From NCBI GenBank assembly GCA_028713415.1, contig JAQTOI010000008.1, forward strand, positions 1 to 37,243: a stretch of DNA of 37,243 nt, in the 5' to 3' direction. Below, piece by piece: positions 15,107 through 28,370 of the stretch (within the stretch, counting starts at the first letter, position 1; each line of letters starts with the position of its first letter). The position numbers and the translations under genes are program-made. Source of the DNA: Candidatus Omnitrophota bacterium (GTDB taxonomy: Bacteria > Omnitrophota > Gorgyraeia > Duberdicusellales > 4484-171). The notes beneath the pieces were generated by a model that was not told where the DNA came from, made no database searches, and saw only the letters and a program-made list of their open reading frames with translations.

Positions 15107-15799
15107 GTGAATAAAAAAAGCGACTCTATTTTTCCATATACTTATATAGATTCGCAACGATTACGAGAAACATTTTTTTCCCCGCAGAAAAAACGAGAGC
15201 TGCATAAAAAGAAAAAAAACTCTCATTCTAAAGTAATTATCGTTGCAAGCGCTGCTGCCTTTTTATCCTTAGTCGCCTTAGTCGCGTTCGGTGTTAAATA
15301 CGACCTCTTGGTTATCCCCCGCGCTCATATAAAATCCGATACCTCGCTATTACGCAATCAGGGGCTTTACTCGTCTGCAGTAATAAAGGGGGGCGTTGCC
15401 TTCAAAGCAAAAAATTCTCCGCTTTATCTGGAAATACCCGCCCAGGGAGACATAAAGCTAATTATCAGCCTTAAAAAACCGGTCAATATCGCTAAAACTC
15501 CCCTTCTTTTATACCTTAAAAAAGCAAACTCTCCTTTAAAGATGGGCGTTGTAGCGCGTGATAGCCAGTTTTTTTCTAATTCGCTTAACCCGTTTATTAT
15601 TGAATTAAAGGCAAACATGGAATCGTCTTATACGAAAATTCCTATTGCGCTGGCTGATGCACGCCTTCAGAATACAAACCTTTCCAATATCAATCAAATC
15701 ACTCTGTATTTTTATCCTCCGCAAGAGAACGAATCCACAGCTATAAATAATTGGGTTGTAGTCAAAGATTTGGTTTTAGCAGAAAAGGGGGCCAAATGA
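15107..15799 (+). CDS. Single-pass membrane protein with basic N-terminus and beta-rich outer domain; function unknown; GTG start
   Basis: Lys/Arg-rich RELHKKKKNSHSK, then VIIVASAAAFLSLVALVAFGV (TM), then beta-strand-like sequence ending INNWVVVKDLVLAEKGAK. Stop overlaps the next gene's ATG (ATGA). Confidence 0.75.
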   Translation: MNKKSDSIFPYTYIDSQRLRETFFSPQKKRELHKKKKNSHSKVIIVASAAAFLSLVALVAFGVKYDLLVIPRAHIKSDTSLLRNQGLYSSAVIKGGVAFKAKNSPLYLEIPAQGDIKLIISLKKPVNIAKTPLLLYLKKANSPLKMGVVARDSQFFSNSLNPFIIELKANMESSYTKIPIALADARLQNTNLSNINQITLYFYPPQENESTAINNWVVVKDLVLAEKGAK

Positions 15800-16818
15800 A
15801 AATTATATCTGTAGTAAACCAGAAAGGTGGATGCGGAAAAACAATAACCGCCGTAAATTGTGCAGCCGCCTTGCACAAAAAAGGATATAGAGTTTTACTG
15901 GTTGACCTTGACCCCCAGGCGCATGCGACTTTTGCCTTGCGCAAAGTATCAAACGTGTATATTACGGATATTCTGGAAGCAACCGCTGAAAATTTGCCCA
16001 TGCCGTCGGAAAATCTCTTAACGGCCGTTCGTGATAACTTTTATCTTATCCCTTCGCGTATAGGCCTGGCTTCGCTTGAACATAAGCTAGCCGCGCGGCA
16101 AGATAAACTCCAGATACTTTCTTCATTTCTTGCGAAAATTTCAGAAAATTTTGATTACTGCCTGATTGATTGCCCTCCTAACTTGGGGATTCTTACGCTT
16201 AATGCGCTTGAAGCAAGCCACTACTCCCTTATTCCCTTAACGATATGCGACTTTTCTCTGCACGGCATAGACATCTTAAAAAACATTTTGATTATGCTTA
16301 AAGAATTTAAAGGCAGCCATCCGGTGCCCTTCTACCTGCTCACACAGGTAGATAAACGCTATAATTTTTCCAAAGATTTCGGCGATAAAGTCAAAAAACA
16401 ACTAGGTGATCTTCTTTTAAAATCAACCATACGTACCAACATAACCTTGCGTGAAGCTGCGAGTGCCGGAAAAACTATTTTTGAATATAAGGCTGATTCA
16501 CGCGGAGCCGAAGATTTTACTGCCCTCGCGGACGAAGTAGAAAAAATAACTGCACAAAATAAGTGGGCGTCTCTCTTTTTACGCAGCGATAAATTTTCCG
16601 AAGTTTATCTGGTTGGGGATTTCACTAACTGGCAGCGCGATGAACGTTATCGCTTAAGCAAGGTCGGAGAGGATATCTGGAGCATTAATGTCCCTTTAGA
16701 AAAAGGAAAATACCGCTATAAATTTGTCGCCGGAGACAGCTGGTTCAATGACCCGCATAACACATTGGCCGAAGATGATGCCTTTGGCGGGAAAAACTCT
16801 CTTCTAGTGATTGAATAG
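15796..16818 (+). CDS. ParA/Soj-like P-loop ATPase with C-terminal AMPK-type CBM48 glycogen-binding domain
   Basis: MKIISVVNQKGGCGKTITAVNCAAALHKKGYRVLLVDLDPQAHATF (deviant Walker A); YCLIDCPPNLGILTLNAL; C-term VYLVGDFTNWQRDERYRLSKVGEDIWSINVPLEKGKYRYKFVAGDSWFNDPHNTLAEDDAFGGKNSLLVI. ORF extends to 15751; start set at 15796. Confidence 0.93.
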   Translation: MKIISVVNQKGGCGKTITAVNCAAALHKKGYRVLLVDLDPQAHATFALRKVSNVYITDILEATAENLPMPSENLLTAVRDNFYLIPSRIGLASLEHKLAARQDKLQILSSFLAKISENFDYCLIDCPPNLGILTLNALEASHYSLIPLTICDFSLHGIDILKNILIMLKEFKGSHPVPFYLLTQVDKRYNFSKDFGDKVKKQLGDLLLKSTIRTNITLREAASAGKTIFEYKADSRGAEDFTALADEVEKITAQNKWASLFLRSDKFSEVYLVGDFTNWQRDERYRLSKVGEDIWSINVPLEKGKYRYKFVAGDSWFNDPHNTLAEDDAFGGKNSLLVIE

Positions 16819-17587: not shown

Positions 17588-19441
17588 TTAAGTAAGGCTT
17601 TTTATTTCCTGGATTTTTTCTTTCGCTGCCAAATAACCTCTGGCCATAAGCTCCTCTATCTTTTCAAATTCCATCCAGCCCAGTCCCGCGAAACTAGGAT
17701 GGACAACCACATCGGCGATGCCCACTGCCTGCTGGATAAATTCTCGCTGCATAGTTTCGATGCTGCCGAAAATAAAATCGAATACGTGCATTTTATTGTG
17801 GCGCTGATACTCTTTACGAATCTCCTCCTGCGAAGGCGTGATATTTATGGCAATGATTCTATTGACGCCGTAGTTTAAGAGAATTTTTGTAGGCAAAGGG
17901 GTCAAAATTCCCCCATCTAAAAGAATATCTTCTTTGAGTTTTACCGGCTCAAAAAGCCCGGGCATCGCGCAGCTTGCTGCAACCGCTTTATAAAGCAGCC
18001 CTTCTTCAAGCACGATGATTTCTCTTTTGGCAAAATCAAAAGCAACCACTTTAAGCATATGCTTTAAATCGTAAAATGTTTTATTGCCAAAAATCTTTTT
18101 GCAGATACTCTCAAGCCTGCGCGCTCTTATTACGCCTTTGAACGGAAAAGAAATACCCATAAAATTACTTGTTTTTCGGCCAAACTCTTGCGCCAGAGGC
18201 GCGATCTCATCAGGCTTAAGCCCCATCGCCCAAAGCGTTGCGATAACCGAGCCCATACTTGAGCCGCAAATAATATCAATGGTTATGTCATTTTCCTCGA
18301 AAGCCTTGAGCACTCCGATGTGTGCATAACCGAAAGCTGCTCCGCTCCCCAAAGCAAGCCCTGTAATTAAGTCGGCGGTCTGACGGCTTATCCTGCGCAG
18401 CACTTTTGTGTAAGGCTCACCGCTCGACGCCGGCAATGTTGCATACACAGGTTGATTGAGGAGGTCGCATTTAGAAGTATAGCTAATTATGTCTTTACTG
18501 CCGAACTCATTGATTATAACCTTTAATTTTTCGCGTATTGTGGGGTGCTTGGTCTTAAGGTCACTCATCAAGATGCCTGCCCGGCGCAGCTCTTCTATTT
18601 GCGGGAAAAGGACAAAATGAATATAGTCGGCAGGGGAAACAAAATCGTCAAAATAGTTATCCCAAAAATAGAAAGGTATTTCATAAAGAATAAAATGGTA
18701 ACTTTCGCAAAGGTTATTAAGCAACGCGGAAAAATTTGCCGGCGATGTTACTTTTAAGAGCAGGTAATCTATTTCTCCTTTAATAATGAAATTAGGCAGC
18801 GTTTCTTCGTTAAAACCGGCCAGGCTCAGTGCTTTGGCCTCATTTTTGGCCAGATAAGGCAAAACGAAGTTATCACTGGAAGATACTTCAAGGCAAATTA
18901 CTTTTTTACCAGTTTCTTCTTTCAAGCGAAGCGCGAGGTTATATAGATAGGTGGTCTTGCCAGCTGAGGGAAAACCGATTATGCCTATATGTTTGACCTG
19001 AAATATTTTTTTTGGCCTGGTTTGAGTCTTGGCTTTTACGCGTTGAGTAAGCATGCGAGAAAAGTCAAGTGAAATAGCGGGGTGCTTGTTCAGGAATTCC
19101 TTGAAATGCTCATGCCCTGCGCGCAGGATAAAAGAAGTCTCAATAGCCTTGGTAGTTACAGAGTGGGGGTCGCCTGAAAAAATAGAAATTATCCCAAAGG
19201 ATGTGCCCCGTTTGAGCAAGTCTATCTCAACCTCTCCTACCTCCTGATGCGTAAGCGCTACTACCCGCCCTTTAAGCAAAAAATAAAAATAATCCGGAGG
19301 ACTTCCTTCCTGATAAATGATTTCTCCGCTTAAATATTGCTTAACCTCGCAAATTTCTAAAAATGCCGCGATATCTTCGCTGGAGAGCTTATTAAAGGTG
19401 GGGGTATTGCTTAGAATTAATATAATCTCGTTTTTATCCAT
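17588..19441 (-). CDS. cNMP-binding / P-loop / patatin-like phospholipase multidomain protein
   Basis: N-term cNMP domain (YLSGEIIYQEGSPPDYFYFLLKGRV); Walker A IGFPSAGKTTYLYNLALRL; patatin LGSGAAFGYAHIGVLKAFEEN, GSSMGS, LLDGGILTPLPTKILL. Confidence 0.9.
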   Translation of the reverse strand: MDKNEIILILSNTPTFNKLSSEDIAAFLEICEVKQYLSGEIIYQEGSPPDYFYFLLKGRVVALTHQEVGEVEIDLLKRGTSFGIISIFSGDPHSVTTKAIETSFILRAGHEHFKEFLNKHPAISLDFSRMLTQRVKAKTQTRPKKIFQVKHIGIIGFPSAGKTTYLYNLALRLKEETGKKVICLEVSSSDNFVLPYLAKNEAKALSLAGFNEETLPNFIIKGEIDYLLLKVTSPANFSALLNNLCESYHFILYEIPFYFWDNYFDDFVSPADYIHFVLFPQIEELRRAGILMSDLKTKHPTIREKLKVIINEFGSKDIISYTSKCDLLNQPVYATLPASSGEPYTKVLRRISRQTADLITGLALGSGAAFGYAHIGVLKAFEENDITIDIICGSSMGSVIATLWAMGLKPDEIAPLAQEFGRKTSNFMGISFPFKGVIRARRLESICKKIFGNKTFYDLKHMLKVVAFDFAKREIIVLEEGLLYKAVAASCAMPGLFEPVKLKEDILLDGGILTPLPTKILLNYGVNRIIAINITPSQEEIRKEYQRHNKMHVFDFIFGSIETMQREFIQQAVGIADVVVHPSFAGLGWMEFEKIEELMARGYLAAKEKIQEIKSLT

Positions 19442-21747: not shown

Positions 21748-23778
21748 TTAATCAATAACTTCGATATCTAACGATAATGCGAAACTATCTTTGTCCCCGG
21801 TAACAAATAGAACGGAAATTTCCTGGTATACCCGCTCAAAACCAGATTCAGAAGAAGATACGGAATATACCGGCATTGTAAAAATGCGCGCTTTTGCGCA
21901 ATGAAAAGTAAGCAGCAGTTTTTTGTGGTAATCGATTATTACAAACTCATCGGAAACAGGCCAAGCGCGTGCATCTTTAAGCGGTGTATCGTGCGTTTTT
22001 TCTTTCTTGTAAATATCGGAAAAAGATGGTAATGATAAATTAAATTCTACTCCGAATTGACGATTATTCAAGGCATTTTTTTTGTTAAATTTATATAAAG
22101 CCTTAAAGCCTGAAGACCCCGAAAACTCAATAATCTTTGAAAAATCAAGGCCTGGAGACCGGTAACGGCAAGAAAGTTTTGCCGCATGGCCCGCTTTTGA
22201 GGCCGTAACATCATAGAGCTCATTAGCTAACGGCAGCATTTTTTCCTGAAGATTGAAATCTTCAAGGCCAAAACCTTTATCCATGATATGGTCAATAAGG
22301 CTGTGGCGTTGGTATTTGTCGTAAATAAGGAACTTATCTAAGTCTTTCTCTTTCTGTTTAACGACCTCATGAATGGTGCCATGCGCGCCGGCATCCTGCC
22401 CGACGTTTTCCCTGATTTTTTTATGATACGACTCCTCCTGCCTGGTTATAGTGTTAATAAGGTTAAAAGCTTTATCTTTTAAGCTGAATTCCAAGAAAGC
22501 CGCTCCTTTGCGGCTTACAATACAGGTCATCTTTGAATTTTTAACTATAATTTCCTTATTGCCGTCTAAGTCTATGTCCTCTTCTTCGAAAGAAATACCG
22601 GCCTTACGCTTTGCATCAAGTATGTTTTCTGCTTTGATAAGATTTGTATATATCGCTTCACGTATATGATTTAAATAAAATCCGCCGAAAATTCCGTGCC
22701 AATAACCGCAATTGGTCTGGGCTTTCCATAAGCTTTTAAACGCCTCTTTATCTTTAAGGCCGCAAGTATGTATCTTTTTGCTTAAGGAAACCATCCGTTT
22801 GTGCATATAGTTAAGCCGGCTGTATTTATGGTAAAAATTCCTGAAATAACCTCCGCGTAAATATGCGCTTGCCTCATCATATTGATTGTTGCTCTTTAGG
22901 AATTCTTTTAACCTTTCATAAACTAAAGCCGCCTCAGGCTCGAGCACCCACTCGCCCATCTCTTCATAGGATGCTGTCGGTAAATATACCAGGCCCTGGG
23001 AGTTAAATTTCGCGACTGCCTCCGCTGGCTTAATAGTCTCGATTGTTTTTGAATCCTGTAGCATGGAAAAGAAATCTTTCAACCACCCTTTTTCGTATAC
23101 CCAGTCATAAGTATTGGGCCAGAGTCCGAATTTTTCTCCGTCATCAAAAAGCGTTACTAATTTATCTTCCTCGCCGATAAACCCATTTAAAGTTTCCATT
23201 GCTTCATATGCGCGGGAAAAAGGCACTTTATAGCGCAGGGTTTTACTGATAGGAAATACTGAAATTGCTTTGCCATCGTCTTCGGTAGTATAGTAGCCGA
23301 AAAACTCTTTCTGTATGAGCCCGGCGTAGCGAAAATGCGTGTCATCAAGGAATGTATATTTAAGATTAGATTGGTGGATTATGCGGGCCAGGTACTGCTC
23401 CCAGACTCTCTCGGCTATCCAAATGCCGCTGGGTTGCGCGAACTCTTTTTTAATAAACTCATTCATCATATTAATCTGGCCGTATTTATCCGAATCGCTG
23501 ATTAGGGGCAGTATGGGTTCATAATAACCGCCGCTGATGACTTCCACCTGTCCCCGCTTAACTAAGCGTTTTAAAATATCCAGGTATTCTTTCGAGTTCT
23601 TAGATAACCAGTCGTAGAGAGGGCCGGAATTATGCACGCTGCACTTTATTTTGGGAAACTGCGCTAAGATAGAAAGGAAGGGCTGGTAACAGCGTTCGTA
23701 TGCCTCTTTGAATACGTGGTCGAAATTACCTACCGGCTGATGATTATGAACTCCTAATATTAAATATAGTTTTCCCAT
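21748..23778 (-). CDS. GH57 alpha-amylase / 4-alpha-glucanotransferase-like (DUF1925/DUF1926 type)
   Basis: LYLILGVHNHQPVGNFDHVFKEAYERCYQPFL; GIWIAERVWEQ; VTLFDDGEKFGLWPNTYDWVYEKGWL; 676 aa. Confidence 0.93.
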   Translation of the reverse strand: MGKLYLILGVHNHQPVGNFDHVFKEAYERCYQPFLSILAQFPKIKCSVHNSGPLYDWLSKNSKEYLDILKRLVKRGQVEVISGGYYEPILPLISDSDKYGQINMMNEFIKKEFAQPSGIWIAERVWEQYLARIIHQSNLKYTFLDDTHFRYAGLIQKEFFGYYTTEDDGKAISVFPISKTLRYKVPFSRAYEAMETLNGFIGEEDKLVTLFDDGEKFGLWPNTYDWVYEKGWLKDFFSMLQDSKTIETIKPAEAVAKFNSQGLVYLPTASYEEMGEWVLEPEAALVYERLKEFLKSNNQYDEASAYLRGGYFRNFYHKYSRLNYMHKRMVSLSKKIHTCGLKDKEAFKSLWKAQTNCGYWHGIFGGFYLNHIREAIYTNLIKAENILDAKRKAGISFEEEDIDLDGNKEIIVKNSKMTCIVSRKGAAFLEFSLKDKAFNLINTITRQEESYHKKIRENVGQDAGAHGTIHEVVKQKEKDLDKFLIYDKYQRHSLIDHIMDKGFGLEDFNLQEKMLPLANELYDVTASKAGHAAKLSCRYRSPGLDFSKIIEFSGSSGFKALYKFNKKNALNNRQFGVEFNLSLPSFSDIYKKEKTHDTPLKDARAWPVSDEFVIIDYHKKLLLTFHCAKARIFTMPVYSVSSSESGFERVYQEISVLFVTGDKDSFALSLDIEVID

Positions 23779-23785
23779 AAATAAA

Positions 23786-23893
23786 GCATAGCGCTAAGCG
23801 CATGGCGCATAGCGTTTAAATATATTAAATTATTAAATAGTAGATATCTTTTGTTTTGAAACGCTTAGCGCTTTGTGCTATGCGCTGTGCTAA
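23786..23893. repeat. Period-7 inverted heptamer element (AGCGCAT/AGCGCTA family)
   Basis: Left arm agcgcta-agcgcat-ggcgcat-agcgttt (to 23817), AT-rich loop, right arm aacgctt-agcgctt-tgtgcta-tgcgctg-tgcta (23860-23893). Lies between two GH57 genes. Confidence 0.87.
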
Positions 23894-23895
23894 TT

Positions 23896-25461
23896 TTATT
23901 TTATCTGCGTCGGTGGTTGCTTTCCCAGAAGCCGGTATATTTTTTCGACATACATGAAAAATATTCTTTTAAATTCTCCGCTTACATCCTCAAAAGTATT
24001 CCACCAGAACCAATCGCTGCCTTCAATCAAGTAAAAATATTGCCGAGCCTCTTCTACCTTCGGTAAACCCGCCTCCTGCTTAGCTATCAAATCTCTTATC
24101 CTGCGTACCAGCAACCAATAAGCGTTATTTTTCTTATTGCCCACCCATACGCCGAAATCGTTATTTATCCAGGAGCCGGGGGCAAGACGTTCAAGCTTTT
24201 TGCTTTCGGTTTGAGTCAAAAAATCTGAAGGCGTAGTGGTAGTCAGGCAATCGCTTTTCTCAAGAGAAGAATACAGGGCCTCTAAAAAATCTACTCCGTT
24301 ATTTTTATAGTATTCCCAGGCATTTTCTCCGTCCATAATAATAGTGACGATACGTTCGGGAAAAATATTCTTTACGTAAGAATGCGCGCGTTTAAAATGT
24401 TCAATCAAGTCGTAAGCGGCAAACTTAGGATCCTCCCAGCCCTGATAGGTAAAACTTATAATATCGGAAAGGTTCCTATCCCTGAAAAATATATTAACGC
24501 CTTTAAACTTATACGGCCTATGAATAATGTGGCGCTGATTACGAATCATATCGTAAGAGACATTCTCTGTGGTAAGGCTTTTGAAAAGAATGCCTTCATC
24601 GGTTCCTATCCACTTAAAGCCGGCTCTTGCATAAAGGGCAACTACATCTTCTGAAACGCTTCCCTCCGAGGGCCAGCTTCCCCTGGGTAATTCACCAAAC
24701 GCCCGCTTAAATACGTCTTTTGCTTTTTCCAAATGCCAGAAGCAGTCTGGAGGAGCTGAAAAACGCGAAAGTGGCTTTTTCAAGTAAGGGAATTCGTTCA
24801 AAATATCGGTATCATAAATAAGCGGCATTATCGGGTGATGATAGGGAGTTACGGTTATCTCAATGCGCCGGGCGCCAAGCAGTTTGTTGTATAACGGAAT
24901 GATGCGCGATAATATTTCGTAGTGTTTTTTTATAATGAGGGCGCGATCAGCCTGCGTATAATTTTTTTCTTTGGTAATTAGCGCGCGGATTTCTTTATCT
25001 TCCTTAATAGTGTAAGGATGAAACCAGCAAAGGTTAAAAAGTGCCTGCAGGTCTCCTATGTCTTGTGGTTTAAAATGGCCCTTGCTCATCTTTTTGTTGT
25101 AGAGCTGCAGGTACCTGCGGTGCGGCCGTATAGAACGGTCAAAATTTATCGAGAAAAACCGCTCGATGACGAATTTTTTTTCTTCCGGTTTTAAATATGC
25201 GGGATTTTTCAGTGATAGCATGGAGAAGTAATCTTGCGCGTGATTGTTGACGTAATCGAGCAATTGCTCAAGCAGAATGCCGCTGAAATTAAAACTTACT
25301 TTCAGGGTATTGAATTTATCCACTGTGCGCGCCATACCGTAGTAATCTTTTACCCCATGCAGGCGCACCCAGGGCAGGAGATAATAATCAGCATTGGGCG
25401 ACTTGTAGCAGGGCTGATGCATGTGCCATAGGAAAATTATTTTTGTAGGTGACTTTTTCAT
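23896..25461 (-). CDS. GH57 family glycoside hydrolase
   Basis: KIIFLWHMHQPCYKSPNADYYLLPWVRLHGVKDYYGMARTVDKF; GSWPSEGSVSEDVVALYARAGFKWIGTDEGIL; IIMDGENAWEYYKNNGVDFLEALY. Confidence 0.92.
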   Translation of the reverse strand: MKKSPTKIIFLWHMHQPCYKSPNADYYLLPWVRLHGVKDYYGMARTVDKFNTLKVSFNFSGILLEQLLDYVNNHAQDYFSMLSLKNPAYLKPEEKKFVIERFFSINFDRSIRPHRRYLQLYNKKMSKGHFKPQDIGDLQALFNLCWFHPYTIKEDKEIRALITKEKNYTQADRALIIKKHYEILSRIIPLYNKLLGARRIEITVTPYHHPIMPLIYDTDILNEFPYLKKPLSRFSAPPDCFWHLEKAKDVFKRAFGELPRGSWPSEGSVSEDVVALYARAGFKWIGTDEGILFKSLTTENVSYDMIRNQRHIIHRPYKFKGVNIFFRDRNLSDIISFTYQGWEDPKFAAYDLIEHFKRAHSYVKNIFPERIVTIIMDGENAWEYYKNNGVDFLEALYSSLEKSDCLTTTTPSDFLTQTESKKLERLAPGSWINNDFGVWVGNKKNNAYWLLVRRIRDLIAKQEAGLPKVEEARQYFYLIEGSDWFWWNTFEDVSGEFKRIFFMYVEKIYRLLGKQPPTQIK

Positions 25462-25481
25462 GCTTTCCTCATAAATTTTAA

Positions 25482-25597
25482 AACGCTAATTCACGCTAAT
25501 TAAAAATGCTAATTGCCGCGAATACATTAACGATGACGGCTGTTATTATTTATTCGCGAGAATTCGCGTTTCTTAAAGATTAGCGGTAATTCGCGTA
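25482..25597. repeat. Inverted element, CGCGAAT/CGCTAAT heptamer arms
   Basis: Left aacgctaattcacgctaattaaaaatgctaattgccgcgaat; right attcgcgagaattcgcgtttcttaaagattagcggtaattcgcgta. Abuts the GH57 stop at 25598. Confidence 0.82.
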
Positions 25598-27181
25598 TTA
25601 CGGTTGGCATACGGAGTAGTTAGCTTCGGGGAAGATGTTATCTTTATGTTCTATGTCTTCTATCACTTCATGATTCACCGCACCTCTCTCTAGGTAGCTT
25701 CTCAAGAGGTAGAAGCGTTCAAGGTGCGTGATTGTGCGTTTTTTGGCGTACTCCACAAAAGAGCCTGTCTTCATCATGAATGCCCAGTCGCTGCCTTGCG
25801 CAAGAAGAAGCTCTCTGGCCATCTGATTTAGGATTCTTTCTTGCATTTGGCCTAAACCGCAATATTTATTTGCTGCTTCCGTCATCTTTTCCTGCGCGCG
25901 GTGCAGATGCGGGTATATCCAGTCGTTTGAGCCGTTAAGCCAGACTTCGTAATAACCTTTCCAGCCCCAGCTTGAGGGTGAGGGATTAATTACCTGATTT
26001 TTCGGATATAAACCCAGGTACTGTCCGGGGGTAATAAGTTTAATTTTATTTTGGTCGTAACGGATTTTGCGTATCAGGAAATTAAGCCACTGCACCCCCT
26101 CGAACCACCAATGACCAAAAAGTTCCGCATCGTAAGGAGCAACAATAATGGGTTTTCTGTCGAATATAGAAGATAAATATTCTATCTGTTTTTCGCGGTT
26201 GAACATGAAATTGCCTGCGTGATAAACCGCCTTATCCGTTGCCCATTCAGGAACATATGGCTCTTTATGCGTGCTTTCTCCTGTAATACGGTAATATTTT
26301 ATGCCGGTAAAAATTCTTGAGCCGCAGTTTGAAATATACGGCTTTATATAGTCGTAATCTAAATCAAATCCTATATCGCGGTAATACTCGCGATAATTAT
26401 AATCACCCGGGTAGCCTTCTACCGCAGACCAGACGCTCTTCGATGACTCGTGATCCCTGCCGAATACTGCAACTTTGTTTTTTGTGTAATATGAGGAGTA
26501 AACTCCGAATTTTGGCCTGGGACGCGCAAAAATTATGCCATGAGATTCAAGAAGGAAATATTTTATGCCTTCTTCTTTTAAGACTTTATCCACTTCTTCT
26601 GTATAGCCGCATTCGGGAAGCCATATCCCTTTAGGGTTTGTGCCGAAATATTTACGATAGGACGCAGCGCCCGTACGCACCTGCATGCGTATAGCATCTT
26701 TATTAATTCCTATAAGGGGCAGGAACCCGTGGGTCGCACCGCAGGTAATTATCTCTAAAGAACCGTGAGTCTGGTATTTTTTGAATTCTTTGAGTAAATC
26801 GCGCCCGTAGGCATGAATAAATTTTTCACGTGTTTTATTAAAACGGTGATAATACATCAGCGCCAGTTTGTAGAAATCGGGGTTGAAACGGTTGCGGTCT
26901 ATCTCTTTTTCGCAAAGCTCGACCATCTTGTTTAAATGCCCCACGTAGCGGTTACGCAGCAATTCATCGGCAAGCATGTTGCACAATGTCGGGGAAAGAT
27001 TAAGAGTGAAAGCAAAATCAACGCCGTCGTGAACCAGCCCCTCGAACATATCTAAAAGGGGCATATAAGTTTCGGTTAGCGCCTCAAAAAACCAGCGCTC
27101 TTCCAAAAACTCTTCGTGCTCCGGATGGCGCACGAAAGGCAGATGAGCGTGTAAGACTAATGCTAAATATCCTTTTTCCAT
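25598..27181 (-). CDS. GH57 1,4-alpha-glucan branching enzyme-like (DUF1957)
   Basis: GYLALVLHAHLPFVRHPEHEEFLEERWFFEALTETYMPLLDMFEGL; GIWLPECGYTEEVDKVLKEEGIKYFLLESHGI; IVAPYDAELFGHWWFEGVQWLNFLIRK. Confidence 0.95.
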   Translation of the reverse strand: MEKGYLALVLHAHLPFVRHPEHEEFLEERWFFEALTETYMPLLDMFEGLVHDGVDFAFTLNLSPTLCNMLADELLRNRYVGHLNKMVELCEKEIDRNRFNPDFYKLALMYYHRFNKTREKFIHAYGRDLLKEFKKYQTHGSLEIITCGATHGFLPLIGINKDAIRMQVRTGAASYRKYFGTNPKGIWLPECGYTEEVDKVLKEEGIKYFLLESHGIIFARPRPKFGVYSSYYTKNKVAVFGRDHESSKSVWSAVEGYPGDYNYREYYRDIGFDLDYDYIKPYISNCGSRIFTGIKYYRITGESTHKEPYVPEWATDKAVYHAGNFMFNREKQIEYLSSIFDRKPIIVAPYDAELFGHWWFEGVQWLNFLIRKIRYDQNKIKLITPGQYLGLYPKNQVINPSPSSWGWKGYYEVWLNGSNDWIYPHLHRAQEKMTEAANKYCGLGQMQERILNQMARELLLAQGSDWAFMMKTGSFVEYAKKRTITHLERFYLLRSYLERGAVNHEVIEDIEHKDNIFPEANYSVCQP

Positions 27182-27202
27182 AAAAAGATTTATGTAAGTT
27201 TT

Positions 27203-27303
27203 TAACGCAGATTAACGCTAAAACAACACAAACGCACGCAGATAACTCATCCGCGACTGCCCCTGCCTGCCGGCAGGTGCGTATATCTGCGAAAATCTGC
27301 GTT
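27203..27303. repeat. Diverged CGCAGAT-family element, copy D, with embedded CCTGCCGGCAGG palindrome
   Basis: aacgcagattaacgct...acgcacgcagataactcatccgcgactgcccctgcctgccggcaggtgcgtatatctgcgaaaatctgcgtt; palindrome at 27266-27277. Confidence 0.75.
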
Positions 27304-27305
27304 TA

Positions 27306-28370
27306 TTATTTATCGAACCGTTTGACTGCGGGGGTTTTCTTCAATTTATGCTTCTGGCTTTTTGAGGTAGCTACAACTTCGAACTTGTAATCGCCTACCG
27401 GCAAAGCATATCTTAAAGAGAATGTCCCATCGGGGCGTAAATTAACGGGCTTTCCCTCCACGGTTACGTGTGCGTCATGTTCGGTTCTGCCGTAAAGAAT
27501 TAGCTCGGTCCACACTTCTAAGAAAAATTTGTCCTGCACCTTCTTGCGTTCTGAAAAGAGACTGCTCATGCCCCATGAAGCCAGCGGCGATGAAATCTGA
27601 TGTTTCAATATTTCTTCAAATCTCTTCTTTCGCTCCATAGAACTTTTTCCTAAGTCATATACCCCTAAAACTTTATAATACTCTTCATCGGGCAATGCCC
27701 ACTCTTCGTCAATAATTGAAGAAATTCCGAAATATGGCGTCTTGATGATATTGGAACGGGCTACAGGGAAAAATTTTCCTGCCGGATTTTTTAACCCTAT
27801 TTCCACGCACCATGAACATTCCGGTTTATTGACGTTAATATACCAGTTATTAGCTTCACACTTGATACCAATATCAAAAAATGAATTCGCGTTATTACCG
27901 TTAAATTGCTTGACGCTTGTTACATCGTAGACACGCAGCGCCCAACTTAAATCATGGCGCTCGTATTCGGGTATAGCGGAAATAACTTCGTTAATTTTAC
28001 TTTCCGAAAGATCCCAATAGGTATGCAGCCACCAGGGGTCTCTGGGCATGAGCATTATTCGGTTATCAGCGTAACGGACTGGAAGATTATAGGTTTCCTG
28101 TAAGGGCTTCTGTATCAGGCCCGTGGCGGTAAATTGCGCTTGCGCAGCCACCTGGGGCTCCTGCTGTAAAACGTGGTTGATTGCGGGAGAGTCAAAAACA
28201 GCTTTCTTTATAACGATTTTTCTTAAAATTGGGGCTTTGTTGCGTTTTGAGGCGATTTTCTTGACTATCTTGGTTATTCTTGACGCTTTTGTTTTGGAGG
28301 TTTTTTTCCTCATTTTTGCCTCATTTAAGGTAAAAAAATTGTACCACTCTCCCCCTAGCGTGTCAATCAA
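27306..28370 (-). CDS. DUF4912 domain protein with basic N-terminal tail; true start may be MRKKTSKTK
   Basis: RIMLMPRDPWWLHTYWDLSESKINEV; VDVGIK-like core; C-term WTELILYGRTEHDAHVTVEGKPVNLRPDGTFSLRYALPVGDYKFEVVA. Follows GH57 genes. Confidence 0.87.
   Translation of the reverse strand: MIDTLGGEWYNFFTLNEAKMRKKTSKTKASRITKIVKKIASKRNKAPILRKIVIKKAVFDSPAINHVLQQEPQVAAQAQFTATGLIQKPLQETYNLPVRYADNRIMLMPRDPWWLHTYWDLSESKINEVISAIPEYERHDLSWALRVYDVTSVKQFNGNNANSFFDIGIKCEANNWYINVNKPECSWCVEIGLKNPAGKFFPVARSNIIKTPYFGISSIIDEEWALPDEEYYKVLGVYDLGKSSMERKKRFEEILKHQISSPLASWGMSSLFSERKKVQDKFFLEVWTELILYGRTEHDAHVTVEGKPVNLRPDGTFSLRYALPVGDYKFEVVATSKSQKHKLKKTPAVKRFDK

Follow-up and report, generated by a model that had tools for sequence, protein, structure and literature searches.

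A ParA-type ATPase fused to an AMPK-β-type glycogen-binding module and paired with a membrane protein: a candidate glycogen-positioning system in Candidatus Omnitrophota

ATPases of the ParA/MinD type place DNA, carboxysomes, chemoreceptors, flagella and division sites, and to our knowledge no bacterial machine that places glycogen has been described. Among the characterised systems, the Soj/ParA proteins of chromosomal ParABS partition (T. thermophilus, 1wcv; H. pylori, 8jmj) resemble the ATPase domain of the protein described here, named ParA-CBM, with a target TM of about 0.9 and about 33% identity, and have in common with it the deviant Walker A motif with its signature lysine. In contrast to them, ParA-CBM carries a fused glycogen-binding module and has a membrane-protein partner and no parB neighbour that could be seen. 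The McdAB system of carboxysomes and other ParA/MinD cargo systems likewise combine a ParA-like ATPase with a genetically linked small protein that has a basic peptide at its N-terminus, and are also linked to metabolic cargo, although in ParA-CBM cargo binding would reside on the ATPase itself, the partner is predicted to be transmembrane and the proposed cargo is a polysaccharide. BcsQ, a ParA/MinD family member of cellulose synthesis, also ties an ATPase to a glucan and to the inner membrane; ParA-CBM, however, falls well short of the BcsQ equivalog cut-off, is not accompanied by adjacent cellulose synthase genes and carries the carbohydrate-binding module (CBM). Finally, the CBM48 modules of AMPK-β, LSF1 and SEX4 are of the same type as that of ParA-CBM, with matching aromatic positions, whereas they reside on eukaryotic kinase or phosphatase proteins and not on a bacterial ParA. 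Each half is known; for the combination, or for any ParA-type system that uses a glucan as its cargo or scaffold, we found no description. The initial annotation of the locus knew of no described system with this architecture either, and a search of the open-access literature, an incomplete scope, returned no description of a ParA system acting on glycogen. A 2023 study of five ParA/MinD systems in a single cell does not mention glycogen (PMC10241942).

The window, a stretch of 37,243 nucleotides from a Candidatus Omnitrophota bacterium (contig JAQTOI010000008.1), contains two overlapping genes on the + strand, whose coordinates and descriptions had been given correctly in the initial annotation. 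The upstream gene (15107..15799, GTG start) encodes the membrane partner of 230 aa, and the downstream gene (15796..16818, 340 aa plus stop) encodes ParA-CBM, composed of a ParA/Soj ATPase and an AMPK-β-type module. The partner stop codon TGA (15797-15799) overlaps the ATPase start codon ATG (15796-15798), forming an ATGA stop/start overlap (15796..15799, + strand) in the sequence, and the stretch AAGGGGG, which resembles a ribosome site, precedes the ATG. Through this overlap, partner and ATPase are probably translationally coupled.

The ATPase domain spans aa 1-250 (15796..16545, + strand), the range covered by ParA models in Pfam searches with the frame 15796-16815 (AAA_31, 2.6e-45; CbiA, 1.2e-18). 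In an alignment of 53 sequences, K10, K15, T16, D39 and D125 are invariant. The deviant Walker A motif KGGCGKT claimed for this frame is exact, corresponds to K10-G-G-C-G-K15-T16 within the KGGxGKT pattern with its signature lysine, and is invariant or nearly so across the 53 sequences, while D39 is the catalytic aspartate of the Soj-like fold. The ATPase thus retains its ATP-switch residues. An AlphaFold2 model of the fused protein, built with the family alignment, reached a pLDDT of 90.9 and a pTM of 0.81, and a Foldseek search with this model placed Soj and ParA at the top of the solved structures (E 4e-24). Soj binds DNA through two arginines (PMC7229837), one of which, R188 in ParA-CBM, is at least 90% conserved. 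The position of the second one is occupied by T214, with R213 adjacent, and relatives have His or other residues there; since one of the two Soj arginines is out of place, the nucleoid is an uncertain track for this ATPase. No parB-like gene was found beside ParA-CBM in the inspected neighbourhoods, nor by Pfam among the neighbours tested. Because of the missing adjacent parB, and because nearly all relatives carry further ParA-like genes, an ordinary ParABS partition system was rejected.

The C-terminal module (aa 268-340; 16597..16815, + strand) matches AMPK1_CBM of Pfam over aa 268-336, with an E-value of 5.6e-10 and a score of 39.7 bits, above the curated cut-off of 26.8, and this is the single match to the AMPK1_CBM profile in the genome of the window. 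When a profile of the C-terminal region of the family was compared with the PDB, AMPK-β1 was retrieved with E=1.4e-12, followed by the plant glucan phosphatases LSF1 and SEX4; the similarity to AMPK-β is moderate when single sequences are compared (E about 1e-4). W279 and W316 are invariant in 53 diverse sequences and align with the two tryptophans of AMPK-β that stack on the sugar, and at the lysine position of the YKF motif either K or R occurs. From these features, glucan binding by the module is predicted. The assignment made in the initial annotation depended on an E-set/CBM48 fold with sugar-contacting aromatics, and the profile match to AMPK1_CBM/E-set and the invariance of both tryptophans bear it out.

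The partner, too, conforms to the earlier description of a Lys-rich N-terminus, a single TM helix and an outer beta domain. Its AlphaFold model (pLDDT 82.8) comprises an N-terminal helix (aa 11-24), a TM helix (aa 40-64) and a jelly-roll domain, and profile searches assigned no family name to it. Given the basic residues that precede the TM helix, the N-terminus would lie inside, according to the positive-inside rule. Aa 11-24, the predicted helix, have the sequence YIDSQRLRETFFS and are followed by a basic tail; the conserved motif of the helix is roughly [RH][LI]xx[TIVAS][YF][FL][SDG] (RLxxxFFS in the partner of the window), with lysines after it, so that a short positively charged peptide is present near the N-terminus. 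Activators of ParA/MinD ATPases act via a short, positively charged peptide located at or near their N-terminus (PMC13170346; PMC10241942), and the HpParB peptide is a further case of such an activating peptide (PMC11229316). By analogy, helix and tail of the partner (aa 11-39; 15137..15223, + strand), supported by the modelled helix and the conserved motif, constitute a candidate ATPase-activating peptide. For the outer domain, Foldseek retrieved CBM11, CBM30, CBM29, CBM6 and a mannanase CBM with E-values between 1e-4 and 1e-3, together with FlaA1, CIA30 and viral jelly rolls, with a TM of at most 0.53, and its Pfam CBM matches fall below the cut-off. Carbohydrate binding by this modelled jelly roll is therefore only a suggestion, because jelly rolls other than CBMs match as well and the TM does not exceed 0.53.

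The fusion of ATPase and module is widespread in the phylum. A fusion profile, used with a threshold (E at most 1e-85) set to keep out plain ParA, found it in 143 of the 190 sampled Omnitrophota genomes, almost always as one copy; the number 143 is a count by score. A few of these matches end near profile position 260 although the frame itself runs on, as would be expected if the module were preceded by a longer linker in those sequences. Throughout the family, order and class of the window the fusion is a single frame, and an assembly artefact or frame error was rejected, given one open frame across the phylum. The concern that homologues might lack the domain is hence answered by a fusion conserved phylum-wide. 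Across sequence records, hits to the fusion fall in Candidatus Omnitrophota and, rarely, in Syntrophaceae, Latescibacterota and one unclassified MAG. In these last cases (L095, Syntrophaceae; L127, Latescibacterota; L122, unclassified) ParA-CBM occurs without the usual partner, and their origin may be a transfer, mis-binning or an independent fusion. Immediately upstream of the fusion in L095 is a gene for a protein with a zinc-ribbon-like part and a TM segment.

Within the class of the window, the partner accompanies the ATPase closely. A partner homologue lies beside the ATPase at 89 of 101 distinct loci (102 minus L114, which is not a ParA), which settles the question of whether the pair is conserved together in that class; two of the 12 loci without a partner are contig ends. 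The partner is almost always directly upstream and on the same strand, being divergent in two loci, and a profile search found no partner homologue away from the ATPase among the 2112 proteins of the fetched loci. The remaining neighbours differ by family: radical SAM, patatin and GH1 genes are found in the family of the window, and GH57 or purine genes elsewhere. Since the partner stays adjacent while these neighbours vary among families, the pair forms a conserved unit. Regarding the neighbours themselves, the gene at 17588-19441 (- strand) of the window encodes a cNMP-binding domain, a P-loop NTPase-like middle part and a patatin phospholipase domain in one protein; it and the ATPase gene are convergent in most genomes of family f1 and some of f2. 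Downstream of ParA-CBM, several loci (L108, L109, L134 and others) share a recurring pair of genes, encoding a DUF4870-like membrane protein of 108 aa (below the cut-off) and a Lys-rich protein of 131-144 aa with a weakly Peptidase_U32_C-like end.

Outside this class, the partner was found at none of 15 examined loci of other Omnitrophota classes and, being missing at all of them, does not accompany the ATPase universally. In 13 of these 15 loci, a gene of 242-319 aa unrelated to the partner lies directly downstream of the ATPase, and may be an alternative partner in those classes. These genes (L182-L196; e.g. L182:7138-7947) have no Pfam match, and their products share an N-terminal motif of about R-x-L-K-D-[VI]-[SA]-x-x-F (e.g. 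RGLKDVSPLF or RDVSHVFLSS). A weight matrix made from the partners did not rank these proteins clearly above others, and their identification as a degenerate ParA was dropped after a profile comparison (0.4% probability).

Several observations connect the fusion with alpha-glucan metabolism. As first noticed in the initial annotation, a cluster of three GH57 genes and DUF4912 is located in the window (21748..28370, - strand), as context outside the pair. Its GH57 genes, at 21748-23778, 23896-25461 and 25598-27181, comprise a 4-alpha-glucanotransferase type, an amylase type and a branching enzyme with BE_C, and the DUF4912 gene occupies 27306-28370. At 29 loci of the class, the second gene upstream of the ATPase is a GH57 of the 23896-25461 type, an arrangement confined to part of the families, and in L058, as read from sequence, a GH57-like gene lies beside the ATPase gene and has a glycogen-phosphorylase-like gene next to it. 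In 'Ca. Velamenicoccus archaeovorus' (L083), a GH57-like gene precedes the pair. In the family of the window, GH57 branching enzyme is present in 23/23 genomes with the fusion versus 4/12 without it (p=2e-5; p=2.5e-4 by size-stratified permutation), and in the phylum as a whole, 135/143 versus 33/47 genomes carry a branching enzyme, either GH57 or GH13 (p=4e-5), both statistics ignoring shared ancestry. The GH57 type alone has a modest phylum-wide association (p=0.006), which becomes clearer when GH13 GlgB is added; the search for GlgB covered only the genomes lacking the GH57 type, and a single genome that has neither the fusion nor the GH57 type was scored as GlgB-less without a search, the opposite scoring giving p=1.3e-4. 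The glycogen synthase domain GT5, present in 55/58 relatives, was uninformative as an indicator. Glycogen synthase-type and phosphorylase genes are present in the genome of the window, and Omnitrophota MAGs have been reported to synthesise glycogen (PMC8542988). The recurrence of GH57 neighbours and the co-occurrence of branching enzyme with the fusion lend further weight to the glucan link.

Taken at about even odds, the preferred reading is that the pair positions or anchors intracellular alpha-glucan (glycogen) in the manner of ParA/MinD systems, with the membrane partner as ATPase activator. The ATPase would alternate between an ATP-bound dimer and monomers, as Soj does, and its C-terminal AMPK-β-type module would bind glycogen, so that the ATPase itself is proposed to carry or coat the granule. 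The cytoplasmic N-terminal helix and basic tail of the partner would contact the ATP dimer and cause its release, tying the ATPase cycle to the inner membrane and, perhaps through the outer jelly roll, to an envelope glycan. Glycogen would be anchored at the inner membrane or moved relative to it, on a matrix that may be the nucleoid, the membrane or glycogen itself, and would as an outcome be spaced, divided among daughters or kept near the membrane. Within this scheme, glucan binding, partner contact, DNA binding and positioning itself are what we infer. The two-component glucan system proposed in the initial annotation is partly supported, with a strengthened glucan link and conserved pairing in the class of the window; in the other classes, the partner is absent at 15/15 loci. 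The broader statement, that a phylum-wide ParA-type system positions or partitions glycogen by means of a cargo module in the ATPase and a transmembrane activator towards the envelope, is put forward tentatively, at somewhat less than even odds.

Other readings assign the module or the partner a different role. The cargo could be the membrane protein, or a complex that it joins, with the CBM reporting on glycogen reserves as in AMPK; glycogen binding would then alter the ATPase cycle and, in turn, the distribution or activity of the partner. The module of AMPK-β is described as a glycogen sensor (PMC2642990), and in ParA-CBM it is located on the ATPase and not on a cargo adaptor; no conserved signalling partner accompanies the pair, however, and the fusion persists in loci without the partner, which leaves this reading unlikely. 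That the module is a protein dock and no sugar binder, bringing a GH57 or another enzyme to a ParA-organised membrane site, is improbable: precisely the sugar-contact aromatics are invariant across the 53 diverse sequences, although E-set domains are able to serve as docks for proteins and the single-sequence similarity to AMPK-β is moderate (E about 1e-4).

The CBM-like fold of the outer domain of the partner and the presence of BcsQ among structural and profile matches of the ATPase are also consistent with an envelope machine, in which the pair would organise a trans-envelope apparatus for a surface alpha-glucan or oligosaccharide, bound by the outer jelly roll. In 33 of the 101 loci, moreover, a gene for an alginate-export-like outer-membrane barrel lies at most four genes upstream, with GH57 at 20 of those. 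This barrel neighbour is nevertheless absent in the window's own family, the BcsQ equivalog model gives 71 bits where 158 are required, GH57 and CBM are predicted to be cytoplasmic, and the conserved surroundings of the pair include neither a glycosyltransferase nor an export complex, so that this option seems improbable.

If the preferred reading of glycogen positioning or anchoring is correct, the pair would be the first among ParA/MinD systems to use a polysaccharide as its cargo or scaffold, and may be the first known machine that places or anchors bacterial glycogen. It would also provide a candidate role for two genes, one of them currently annotated as an ordinary ParA and the other encoding a membrane protein that lacks a family name. 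With the fusion in about three quarters of a mostly uncultured phylum, granule positioning and sharing at division become directly testable.

Modules of this type also occur on their own. Stand-alone AMPK1_CBM-like proteins of 100-170 aa are encoded near glycogen synthase-type and branching-enzyme genes in several genomes (G015:C14, G029:C195, G012:C143 and others), and in relatives (for example on G015:C14 and G029:C195) they share a contig with glycogen synthase and branching enzyme, within about 6 kb, a further link to alpha-glucan. Separately, giant open frames of 20,296 aa (G000:C3, the window's genome) and 20,944 aa (G011:C16, a relative) were observed, with a GT5-like match inside.
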